Origin: Chloroflexota bacterium
GTDB taxonomy: Bacteria > Chloroflexota > Ktedonobacteria > Ktedonobacterales > Ktedonobacteraceae
Length of the DNA: 6,062 nucleotides
Assembly: GCA_021828635.1 (NCBI GenBank)
Contig: JAJZEJ010000519.1
Location: forward strand, 1 to 6,062
Direction: 5' to 3'
Position numbers and translations under genes: made by a program. How positions within the stretch are numbered: the stretch's first letter is position 1; each line of letters starts with the position of its first letter. This document shows positions 260 to 6,062 of this stretch, in pieces. The notes beneath the pieces were generated by a model, which was given only the letters and a program-made list of their open reading frames with translations, ran no database searches and was not told the DNA's origin.

Positions 260-303
260 AAAAAGCCGCCAGGTAGCGCCGAAAAAGCCGCCAGGTAGCG
301 CCG
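260..303. repeat. Two tandem copies of a 22-bp repeat
   Basis: Two identical 22-bp units lie head to tail (260-281 and 282-303). Each is a short A run followed by GCCGCCAGGTAGCGCC and G. The core is itself a rough inverted repeat (GCCGC against GCGCC). The second copy ends 5 bp from the stop codon of the initiator gene. The 22-bp length lies within the usual iteron range, but two copies are few. They may be initiator-binding sites or simply a small tandem duplication. Confidence 0.6.
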
Positions 304-3310: not shown

Positions 3311-4297
3311 TTACTCCTCTTCTTTCCTGCTTTGTGTCTTTCTGCTACCCACTTTGCTTTGCTCACGTTGCTTGTTGTAGTACATCATAGCTCGTTCAAA
3401 TTGTACTTGCGCTAACGAGAGATCGGGGCTTTGAATTTTTCGTAGCAATTCGGTCAGCAAAGCCCAATAGGAGACAGAAATGGCATCAATGGGGTGGGTG
3501 AGTAGCACACACGAACGTCTATTGGTAGCGTTGATAAATGCTGCACTCTCATTAGTATATGCTTCAAAACAGGAGAGATGCAAGCGTGGGAATTGCTTAT
3601 TCAAGGTTGGAACAAGTTTATCCTGGATATATTCCATCAGTCTCGTGTGTTCTGCATAGCGCACCCGACTAAAGACGATGCCTACGATTTTGAGATTAGG
3701 GTTAATAGTACGTGCCTCGTTAATAGAGTTACACAAGATAATCAATCCCTGCGTAGGCCATTGTTCCGGCACGGTGGGTATCAGTACGTAGTCAGCGACA
3801 ATGAAGGCGTTGACAGTCAATTTGCCGAGGTCGGGATGGGTATCAATAAAAATATAGTCATAGTTTTGTCGGTAACTTTGTAGGGCTGTGCGCAGGAGTG
3901 ATCCCCAACTTGGATTATGGATCAGATCGTTTTCTGCACGAGCAGCAGCGATATTACAGGGTAGTAGATCAGGACCGCTGACAATATTCTCTGGCGGAAT
4001 AGTGAGCCGTGCTAAAATCTCTTGATTTGAGGCATCAATAAATTGTTTTGATACCTTGTCAAAGTACGTCTGTTTGACGGCCTGCTCGAAGGTTGATTGC
4101 CCTGTTATCAGGGTATAGGTAGTATGCTCTAATTTGCTTGGCTCAATACCCAACGCTGCGGTCGTATTGCCCTGTAAATCGGCATCCACCAGCAGGACGC
4201 GCTTGCCAAGTAGCGTGAGTCCTACACCCAAATTGATGGTAGAGCTTGTTTTTGTGACTCCACCTTTAAGGTTGGAACTCACGATGATTGTTCCCAT
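3311..4297 (-). CDS. parA: ParA-family partition ATPase
   Basis: This 328-residue ParA/MinD-type ATPase drives DNA segregation by ATP-dependent nucleoid binding, with ParB stimulating hydrolysis. The deviant Walker A is KGGVTKTS at 11-18, with signature lysine K11 and catalytic K16. The Walker A' region is VDADLQGN (37-44), and Walker B is IFIDTHPDLG (149-158). There is no N-terminal helix-turn-helix domain, so it resembles the short Soj-like ParAs. It is longer than these at the C-terminus, where residues 300-328 form a charged tail (KQREQSK, then RKTQSRKEEE). The start at 4297 is chosen because GGAGGGG lies 3 nt ahead and MGTIIVSSNLKGG is a standard ParA beginning. An in-frame ATG at 4348 would add 17 residues, but it lies inside an operator palindrome and has no ribosome site. 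It is the first gene of parA-parB-initiator. A consensus-like promoter at 4366-4394 and a palindrome just past its start site suggest self-regulation. Confidence 0.95.
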   Translation of the reverse strand: MGTIIVSSNLKGGVTKTSSTINLGVGLTLLGKRVLLVDADLQGNTTAALGIEPSKLEHTTYTLITGQSTFEQAVKQTYFDKVSKQFIDASNQEILARLTIPPENIVSGPDLLPCNIAAARAENDLIHNPSWGSLLRTALQSYRQNYDYIFIDTHPDLGKLTVNAFIVADYVLIPTVPEQWPTQGLIILCNSINEARTINPNLKIVGIVFSRVRYAEHTRLMEYIQDKLVPTLNKQFPRLHLSCFEAYTNESAAFINATNRRSCVLLTHPIDAISVSYWALLTELLRKIQSPDLSLAQVQFERAMMYYNKQREQSKVGSRKTQSRKEEE

Positions 4298-4340: not shown

Positions 4341-4356
4341 ATCTGCATATGCAGAT
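4341..4356. promoter_or_regulatory. Single palindrome in operator position at the parA promoter
   Basis: One exact copy of ATCTGCATATGCAGAT lies alone here; with flanking bases the symmetry extends to 18 bp (4340-4357). It falls between the parA -10 (4371-4366) and the ribosome site, covering roughly +4 to +19 of the expected transcript. It is 97 bp (start to start) from the first copy of array 1. A protein bound here should block promoter clearance. I infer autoregulation by ParB or a ParA-ParB complex, as in many par operons; binding is not shown by sequence alone. Confidence 0.65.
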
Positions 4357-4365
4357 CACTTCCTT

Positions 4366-4394
4366 ATTATGACAAAGTATCTCGCTGTTTGCAA
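4366..4394 (-). promoter_or_regulatory. parA operon promoter
   Basis: On the minus strand TTGCAA (4394-4389) and CATAAT (4371-4366) are spaced by exactly 17 bp; the expected start is near 4359. Upstream, GTAAAAAACTAG (4415-4404) gives an A-tract in the position of an UP element. The same parts occur in the promoter at 5272-5300, which raises confidence in both. Palindromes lie on both sides: one downstream at 4341 and array 1 upstream from 4438. Confidence 0.75.
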
Positions 4395-4437
4395 GTACTT
4401 TTCCTAGTTTTTTACTACTTAGAAAAATTGGAATGTG

Positions 4438-4727
4438 ATCTGCATATGCAGATGAGTAGCATGGCGAGAAACGATCTGCATATGCAGATGAGTAGCATGG
4501 CAAGAAACGATCTGCATATGCAGATGAAAAGCATGGCAAGAAAGTATCTGCATATGCAGATGAGTAGCATGGCAAGAAACGATCTGCATATGCAGATGAA
4601 AAGCATGGCAAGAAAGTATCTGCATATGCAGATAGGTGCGCGGATAGTTTCCTTGTAAAGAGAGAATATGTATCTGCATATGCAGAAGAAGAGTGCTACC
4701 GAAAGGCAGACATCTGCATATGCAGAA
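4438..4727. repeat. Palindrome array 1: eight copies, candidate parS centromere
   Basis: The 16-bp palindrome ATCTGCATATGCAGAT starts at 4438, 4474, 4510, 4546, 4582, 4618, 4672 and 4712. The first six are exact; the last two end in A instead of T. Spacing is exactly 36 bp between the first six, then 54 and 40 bp. The 20-bp spacers in the 36-bp part are of two kinds (GAGTAGCATGGCRAGAAACG and GAAAAGCATGGCAAGAAAGT), so the spacers are conserved too. The array lies between the parA promoter and the broken DUF4190 gene. A cluster of 16-bp palindromes beside parAB is what a ParB-loading centromere looks like. Iterons for the initiator are the main alternative. Confidence 0.85.
4474..4617. repeat. 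Perfect 72-bp tandem duplication inside array 1
   Basis: The segments 4474-4545 and 4546-4617 are identical. Each is palindrome, A-type spacer, palindrome, B-type spacer. The preceding unit at 4438-4473 matches the A-type half with one base change (GGCGAGA for GGCAAGA). The identity points to a recent expansion by unequal recombination or replication slippage. Confidence 0.9.
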
Positions 4728-4735
4728 ATAGTGCC

Positions 4736-5173
4736 TCAGTAGCCGCGCAAGTGTAGATAGACACCGAGAGCGGAGTTGCCGATTGCCAGGATGAGATCAA
4801 GAAGCGCCAATGTTTTATGTATGACAGACCGGTGACCCAAGGCAGAGAAGACGATGCCGAGAATAGCGAGTGGGACGCCTGCTATAGGTAATAACTAGGC
4901 GATCATGCTGATAATACCTAAAACAAGTCTGGCGATGGCCTGACCATTACCTCGCGTTGGTGGTGGATAGGGTGCCTGTGGTGCATATGGTCCCGGCACA
5001 GGCTGAGTATAGGGAGCGTTCGCGTAAGGCATTTGAGAGTAAGGTGATGCTGGTGTCACATTAGCAGATGGATAGGGCGAGACAGGCGGTTGATTAGCAG
5101 GTGGGTAAGGGTTGCTTGGTTTCTCCGGCTGGTAAAGATATTCTGAATAGGGATCGGGAGTTTGATCGCTCAT
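4736..5173 (-). pseudogene. DUF4190-type membrane protein gene with an internal amber codon
   Basis: Reading from ATG 5173 gives MSDQTPDPYSEY, then a Pro/Tyr/Asn-rich cytosolic-type region (to ~72) with PYPPAN and PYAP motifs. TRGNGQAIARLVLGIISMIA (73-92) follows, the start of a membrane segment. Codon 93 is TAG (4897-4895). Past it the same frame continues for 52 codons, with PIAGVPLAILGIVFSALGHRSV and a second membrane segment LILAIGNSALGVYL, to a TGA at 4738-4736. From my memory of DUF4190-type proteins, Trp follows this first membrane stretch, so a TGG-to-TAG change is likely. The second helix also looks shorter than usual. The 92-residue product would lack both complete membrane helices. 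Function in the family is unknown. An upstream in-frame ATG at 5251 would add 26 residues but leaves only a ~14-nt leader and no ribosome site. The gene has its own promoter and sits between the two palindrome arrays. Confidence 0.75.
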
Positions 5174-5271
5174 ATGTTGCGCTTCTTTACTAAATATCTG
5201 GATAGGCAATAGAAGTATTACAAATCCTACATAACAATATGAGTTGTTCATCGAACAGAAATAGCTGCTTC

Positions 5272-5300
5272 AGTATACAAAGTATTGGCTGTGTTTGCAA
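5272..5300 (-). promoter_or_regulatory. Promoter of the broken DUF4190 gene, twin of the parA promoter
   Basis: On the minus strand TTGCAA (5300-5295) and TATACT (5277-5272) are spaced by exactly 17 bp; the expected start is near 5265, about 92 nt before ATG 5173. The spacer shares ATACTTTG with the parA promoter, and the A-tract GTAAAAAACTAG recurs upstream at 5326-5315. Palindrome array 2 begins at 5351. Unlike the parA promoter, no palindrome lies downstream of the start site. Confidence 0.7.
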
Positions 5301-5350
5301 GGATGTTCGGTTCTCTAGTTTTTTACAGTCTGGGAAAGCAATGGAATAAT

Positions 5351-5630
5351 ATCTGCATATGCAGATGAATGCAGAGATGAGAGGCTTCGAGAGAGCAGTG
5401 ATCTGCATAACCGGCCCGTATATCACAACTCACAGTATTTTGTTAAAGGGTATCTGCATATGCAGATGAGCCAGGAATAAGTGACTGAGGGATAGTTGGC
5501 AGAAATCTGCATATGCAGATACGTGCGTGGATGATCTTCTTGTAAAGAGAAGGTTGGTATCTGTATATGCAGATACATGTGGGAGGTAGCTATCTCGTAG
5601 AGGGCAAGACATTTATCTGCATATGCAGAT
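5351..5630. repeat. Palindrome array 2: five copies and a half-site
   Basis: Exact ATCTGCATATGCAGAT copies start at 5351, 5452, 5505 and 5615. The copy at 5559 has one change (ATCTGTATATGCAGAT). A left half only (ATCTGCATA) survives at 5401. Counting the half-site, start-to-start distances are 50, 51, 53, 54 and 56 bp, near five helical turns. The 38-bp spacer at 5521-5558 resembles the one at 4634-4671 in array 1 (27 of 38 positions by eye, shared TCTTGTAAAGAGA-like core). This shows that the two arrays share descent. The other spacers are unrelated to each other, so this array is older or more diverged than array 1. Confidence 0.8.
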
Positions 5631-5811: not shown

Positions 5812-5864
5812 TAGCATCCACGAGGCAGGGTAGCCCTTGCGGCTACCCTGCCTCGTGGATGCTA
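5812..5864 (-). terminator. Perfect 24-bp stem, 5-nt loop, after the ggt gene
   Basis: The arms 5812-5835 and 5841-5864 are perfectly complementary over 24 bp, with loop 5836-5840. The upper stem is GC-rich (GGCAGGGTAGCC and complement). The structure begins 10 bp after the gamma-glutamyltransferase stop codon on the minus strand. There is no T-run after it (ATTCTACGGC), so it is not a textbook intrinsic terminator. Position and strength still favour transcript ending or 3'-end protection. It also insulates array 2 from ggt transcription. A small mobile palindromic element is the alternative. Confidence 0.6.
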
Positions 5865-5874
5865 CGTCACAAGT

Positions 5875-6062
5875 CTACCAAGCTGCGGCGGCGCTTTCGG
5901 CACGTGGGTCCGCACCTCCTTGCATGACGCCCGTGTTGGCATCGAACATGATACCTTGCGCATAGCCCATGAGTGATTGCCATGCGCCGACCTCTTGCAC
6001 GAGATGGCCGCGTTGGCGCAACCCCTCTAGCGTCTCAACCGGAAAACGACTCTCAACCTGAA
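5875..6062 (-). CDS. ggt: Gamma-glutamyltransferase, C-terminal 61 codons (partial)
   Basis: The frame enters from the right edge and ends at TAG (5877-5875). It reads ESRFPVETLEGLRQRGH, then GYAQGIMFDANTGVMQGGADP and RAESAAAAW. This is the typical end of the small subunit of gamma-glutamyltranspeptidases: a Glu-Ser-Arg-Phe/Val-Pro start, a GH motif, a D-x-x-TG turn and the terminal GGADPR. The enzyme transfers or hydrolyses gamma-glutamyl groups of glutathione and related compounds, generally outside the cytoplasm after self-cleavage. The catalytic Thr and most of the protein (family length ~500-580) lie outside the window. The usual GGADPR(A)DG becomes GGADPRAES here, a mild departure. It is unrelated to partition and marks the edge of the par/rep region. 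GC content is visibly higher than in the par genes. Confidence 0.85.
   Translation of the reverse strand, partial: QVESRFPVETLEGLRQRGHLVQEVGAWQSLMGYAQGIMFDANTGVMQGGADPRAESAAAAW

Follow-up and report, generated by a model that had tools for sequence, protein, structure and literature searches.

The centromere sopC of plasmid F, as described in the available part of its published account, comprises twelve 43-bp repeats downstream of sopAB, each of which carries a 16-bp inverted repeat (PMC9178275). For RK2, the corresponding part of the literature presents KorB as a ParB-family protein, which closes into a CTP clamp and exerts repression on distant promoters (PMC11790492). The parS sites of the Burkholderiales secondary replicons (Bsr) are 16-bp palindromes with a central CG and a sequence specific to the ParB of each replicon type (PMC5450999, in the text available), and in the repABC systems of alphaproteobacteria the functions of partition and replication are transcriptionally linked (PMC4492784, likewise). 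At the level of the protein, the excerpted structural work on ParB and Noc lists Q162, G170, K171, S172, N178 and R204 as contacts common to both and positions 173, 179, 184 and 201 as those determining specificity (PMC7383237). As for the Ktedonobacteria, their large secondary replicons were surveyed in 2026, and the portion of the article available reports on them neither a parB nor, by Pfam, a canonical Rep initiator (PMC13289182). The DNA described here, a stretch of 6,062 nt which we term the window, points to a maintenance cassette for the Ktedonobacteria, and its own initiator-like protein is also without a significant Pfam match.

The core of the window is a run of three genes on the minus strand, parA, parB and a rep gene encoding 601 aa, leading away from two arrays of palindromes (Table 1). 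The first product is assigned by AAA_31 (142.6 bits; Pfam cut-off 27), a match that begins at residue 20 of the 345-aa open reading frame and hence at residue 3 counted from the likely start at 4297, which is preferred because it fits the start of the 91% identical relative P0156 (MATIIVSSNLKGG) and is preceded by GGAGGGG. The ParA of F has an N-terminal DNA-binding part; the window ParA is without such an extension before the ATPase domain and so is not of the F type (type Ia). The parB gene, 6 bases from parA, encodes a protein in which ParB_N (91.2 bits) and HTH_ParB (40.9 bits) both exceed their Pfam cut-offs and which scores 137.3 bits with TIGR00180 (NCBIfam, cut-off 58.45); its structural model matches the Caulobacter ParB structure 6t1f_D with a TM score of 0.83 by target length, and its relative P0002 is 90% identical. 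The Walker ATPase gene and the ParB with a CTP-type N domain and helix-turn-helix that characterise ParABS systems are thus both present, and so is a repeated inverted-repeat site near parAB (14 copies). When the 25 ParB rows of alignment A1 are set beside the best 30 ParA rows, six pairs have an equal longest contig (P0003/P0164, P0005/P0158, P0011/P0165, P0015/P0166, P0016/P0173 and P0024/P0174), and the closest relatives of the initiator (P0122) and of ParA (P0156) both have a longest contig of 5,714 bases. This suggests that ParA, ParB and the initiator form a linked module among the relatives, equal size being no proof of the same contig, and in the window the three genes would be co-transcribed.

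Table 1. Positions of the principal features in the window
Feature	Position	Strand	Remarks
Two exact tandem 22-bp repeats	260..303	no strand	directly 3' of rep, 5 bases past its stop; parallel in L149
Predicted double winged-helix replication initiator, 601 aa	309..2114	-	third gene of the run; from structural model
ParB, 375 aa	2177..3304	-	ParB_N domain, HTH_ParB domain, predicted C-terminal helices
ParA-type ATPase, 328 aa	3311..4297	-	likely start 4297 behind GGAGGGG
Palindrome copy 1, operator position	4341..4356	no strand	9 bases downstream of predicted parA -10 box, 43 upstream of likely parA start codon
Segment with parA promoter and array	4359..4686	no strand	blastn match to 5265-5573
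Predicted parA promoter, TTGCAA-17-CATAAT	4366..4394	-	consensus match only
Array 1, eight palindromes	4438..4727	no strand	starts 4438, 4474, 4510, 4546, 4582, 4618, 4672, 4712
Second copy of promoter and array segment	5265..5573	no strand	blastn match to 4359-4686
Paralogous promoter match, TTGCAA-17-TATACT	5272..5300	-	upstream of 118-aa ORF; consensus match and alignment
Array 2, five palindromes	5351..5630	no strand	starts 5351, 5452, 5505, 5559, 5615
Decayed half-copy ATCTGCATA	5401..5409	no strand	midway between 5351 and 5452; from sequence and repeat-family listing

The palindrome itself, ATCTGCATATGCAGAT, is 16 bp long and, with up to three mismatches allowed, occurs 14 times in the window, 11 times exactly and three times (starts 4672, 4712 and 5559) with a single mismatch. 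All copies fall within 4341-5630 and none elsewhere, so that the count given in the earlier note is confirmed, and the total divergence amounts to 3 substitutions in 14 x 16 bases. Shuffles contained on average 0.11 copies and at most 2, the number of 14 being reached in none of 200. In array 1 the start-to-start steps are 36 (five times), then 54 and 40, the first six copies sitting in the units of a 36-bp tandem repeat (5.5 units); those of array 2 are 101, 53, 54 and 56. The palindromes are poorly phased on the helix, with a coherence of 0.21 for n = 9 and of 0.37 for n = 5. The canonical chromosomal parS (TGTTTCACGTGAAACA) is absent from the window, its best match there having 5 mismatches. 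A text search of the open-licence literature did not find the 16-mer, and its exact occurrences in 66 stretches of viral contigs, a single one in each, are read as chance.

Array 2 together with its promoter is paralogous to array 1 with the parA promoter: the two segments align with 67% identity over 340 columns including 43 gaps (blastn E 2e-25, a score raised by the repeated palindromes). Since the window contains 11 promoter-like sites against 8.5 expected, the parA promoter match is weak on its own; the place of the copy at 4341 relative to the predicted -10 of this minus-strand match nevertheless makes the operator position proposed earlier a fair reading. Between the arrays and behind the duplicated promoter lies a 118-aa proline-rich open reading frame (4895-5251, minus strand) with no Pfam match up to E = 1, and its frame runs on past a TAG with hydrophobic sequence, such that the gene looks interrupted. 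One could regard the array as mainly a by-product of tandem duplication, in which one or two functional ParB sites are accompanied by passive copies, and the five nearly identical 36-bp steps and the segmental copying of array 2 would fit such an origin. Yet in the ungapped pair 4618-4686/5505-5573, the one segment pair compared and one picked after the repeats had been seen, mismatches affect 1 of 31 palindrome positions against 11 of 38 spacer positions (Fisher p = 0.008), which is what selection on the palindrome would predict, and copies with different spacers are still exact; we therefore consider passive duplication unlikely. Less probable still is the proposal that the palindromes serve a transcription regulator whose gene lies elsewhere on the element or in the host and which would use them as operators at two related promoters. 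Both paralogous promoter matches do have palindromes upstream, and one copy stands at the predicted transcription start, but the five open reading frames scanned (Pfam, NCBIfam) showed no further regulator family, 14 sites exceed the needs of a simple operator, and the partition genes would then have no visible centromere in the window, all of which makes this proposal very improbable.

The CTP motif GERRWRA and the segment KKKKAHVDDHL reported earlier are both found in the translation of the local ParB, and the departure of the helix-turn-helix from the chromosomal type is borne out by our own alignment, in which two of the six contacts common to ParB and Noc are kept. This alignment-based mapping places I, K, K, K, D and R of the window ParB at Q162, G170, K171, S172, N178 and R204, while its residues at the specificity positions 173, 179, 184 and 201 are K, H, R and R, that is neither the RTAG of Caulobacter ParB nor the QKKR of Noc; over all ten contact positions I K K K K D H R R R stands against Q G K S R N T A G R in Caulobacter ParB. 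Within the 25 rows of alignment A1, R187, R205 and R208 occur in all 25, H182 in 24 and I165 in 22, and positions 173-176 vary.

The genome contigs yielded one relative of this ParB (L001, from an Opitutia bin), which is without a repeated palindrome; a single-sequence search of the viral contigs found none, and an alignment search of the same contigs gave 93 distant relatives, of which the best 80 were kept. The whole window compared with plasmids by blastn gave no match. In 19 comparison rows we searched for a 12-bp palindrome occurring more than once at up to about 3 kb from the partition gene, dropping palindromes made of two letters only; the Opitutia bin was one of these rows, the short stretches L152 and L153 were scanned whole, and in L159, L161 and L171, where no genes are listed, the ParB frame was read by script. 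A convincing repeated palindrome lies near the ParB relative in six rows (L068, L159, L160, L161, L167 and L171), compared with one of 90 control segments from viral contigs. A seventh row, L152, has the AT-rich and doubtful GAAATATATTTC, and the remaining 12 have no repeated 12-bp palindrome, among them L154 and L157, which have no annotated ParB at the site. The palindromes of L161 and L167 contain the canonical parS core, and those of the other rows differ in sequence from ATCTGCATATGCAGAT. Near the ParB-like loci of viral contigs (best 80 of 93) a 12-bp palindrome is repeated within 3 kb in 4 of 80 cases, against 1 of 90 segments further away, a comparison that is uninformative because the ParB-like proteins of phages may have functions other than partition.

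The palindromes of these relatives allow residues and bases to be compared. The Chlorohelix plasmid NZ_CP128401.1 (L068) carries TTTTCGCGAAAA in 3 copies near its ParB relative, the core TTGTTTTCGCGAAAACAA being found at 4854, 6885 and 7807, around parAB, and this palindrome is probably a parS; in the ParB of L068 both 173 and 201 are R, in keeping with G as base 1 and C as base 6. More generally, residue 173 and base 1 are paired as R-G in L068, L159, L161 and L167, as Q-A in L171 and as K-T in L160, and K-T is also the combination in the window. Of these pairings, Q-A is stated and R-G implied in the available text of the published work, which gives as a companion rule, for Noc, R201 with C at base 6 (PMC7383237). 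In L068 the base-6 partner of R at position 201 is C, and in the other five rows residues other than R are paired with A; the window breaks this rule, since it has R205 in that place, yet A at base 6. Being post hoc and confined to six rows, the pairing comparison argues, from sequence, for such palindromes being ParB sites in general more than for ATCTGCATATGCAGAT itself.

The third gene of the run encodes a protein whose structural model has the double winged-helix fold of iteron-type initiators (RctB/Pi/RepE type). Its best Pfam match is a sub-threshold AT_hook (E 0.65), and NCBIfam gives nothing up to E = 1. The family comprises 35 rows at E <= 0.001, its own row included, and the three relatives with an organism name are from Ktedonospora formicarum, Ktedonobacterales and Chloroflexota, which makes a ktedonobacterium the probable host of the element. 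For the 34 rows of alignment A2, which is without P0155, Pfam returned RPA in one (E 0.0028), GH114_assoc in four (best E 0.0024) and otherwise weaker matches; the profile found nothing significant among sequences of solved structures (best E 0.3), and rep has no match in phages. The exact 22-bp repeats 3' of rep are probable iterons, since a 38% identical initiator in L149 has 22-bp repeats as well, three in number and 12 bases past its stop, of which the third is 86% identical; two Bacillaceae plasmid relatives have no 22-bp tandem repeats near the gene. In L149 (2668-6569, a contig of a viral collection) the repeats are succeeded by open reading frames of 372 and 418 aa, whose products resemble a DnaB-type helicase and a primase. 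The DnaA box, up to one mismatch being allowed, is matched once in the window against 5.9 times expected, so that a DnaA-dependent origin is unsupported here. Beyond the 22-bp repeats, at 208-248, lies a perfect 17-bp inverted repeat with a 7-base loop, a possible terminator or origin hairpin. Least probable of all is the suggestion that the palindromes form an origin or incompatibility array of this predicted iteron-type initiator, for although initiators of that type can also bind inverted repeats as dimers, which would allow it, this one has its own tandem repeats directly past its stop, as has its L149 relative, the palindrome has 7 identities with the 22-bp repeat, as many as in 68% of 2000 shuffles, and the arrays stand beside parA, at the opposite end of the gene run from rep.

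We thus regard it as very likely, judging from the sequence, that the 14 palindromes are the parS centromere of a plasmid ParABS system and that the one at 4341 also serves the parA-parB-rep run as its operator. This reading is preferred because parAB are adjacent and the palindromes are kept between diverged spacers, because one copy lies at the predicted parA transcription start in a window lacking canonical parS, and because the ParB recognition surface departs from the residues common to ParB and Noc; on these same grounds the ParB-parS pair with its own specificity, put forward in the earlier note, stands as the best explanation. One ParB dimer would dock on each 16-bp palindrome by way of the helix-turn-helix domains, and CTP would close ParB into a clamp, which would leave the site and load neighbouring DNA, the resulting ParB-DNA complex being moved by ParA. 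ParB bound at 4341 could block transcription of the gene run and, together with clamps spreading from array 1, could repress the parA promoter and hence the initiator gene downstream. ParB binding, clamp loading, repression and segregation would then all take place on an element that is probably a plasmid. More tentatively, we can envisage a self-contained replication-partition cassette of the Ktedonobacteria, in which a ParB of new specificity uses a 14-site centromere for segregation and acts as a KorB-like CTP clamp setting the dose of the initiator, such that occupancy of the centromere throttles replication.

At the far end of the window, a partial open reading frame (5875-6060, minus strand) has a sub-threshold Pfam likeness to the terminal part of gamma-glutamyltranspeptidase (E 3.2e-5; 23.4 bits, cut-off 27), and just 3' of it is a perfect 24-bp inverted repeat with a 5-base loop (5812-5864). 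Scans of the window for Rfam families and tRNAs gave none. A candidate ParB-parS pair, whose recognition surface is unlike that of chromosomal ParB or Noc, would be useful for studying the evolution of ParB specificity and as a further orthogonal pair for DNA labelling. No open-licence paper on Chloroflexota plasmid partition with iterons was found.

Compared with the described systems, the locus resembles F sopC/SopAB in that many short tandem repeats, each with a 16-bp inverted repeat, would make up the centromere. In F a ParB dimer occupies each inverted repeat (PMC9178275, in the part available), as is predicted here, but the F repeats are downstream of sopAB, whereas the sites here are upstream of parA. 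The unusually large centromere that had been proposed finds little support, with 14 sites against the twelve of sopC and with part of its span made up of the duplicated promoter and the interrupted open reading frame. As to RK2 KorB with its OB sites, the structures matched by the window ParB model include those of KorB, but with 22-26% identity in the aligned part, and nothing KorA-like is found among the window open reading frames scanned. Pfam holds KorB models, and up to E = 1 no KorB-named hit was returned for the window ParB, in a search from which weak matches can be filtered out. The cassette also differs from repABC, since ParB scores 58.4 bits with TIGR03454 (RepB) against a cut-off of 201.5 and the 309-2114 protein has no RepC match in Pfam or NCBIfam. 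The neighbouring initiator family is the more unusual find. The Bsr parS and ATCTGCATATGCAGAT are both 16-bp palindromes, the former with a central CG and the latter with a central AT and an otherwise different sequence. Private 16-bp palindromic parS sites on replicons are therefore of a known kind, as far as the accessible text of that study goes (PMC5450999), while this particular site sequence and its partner ParB look new.
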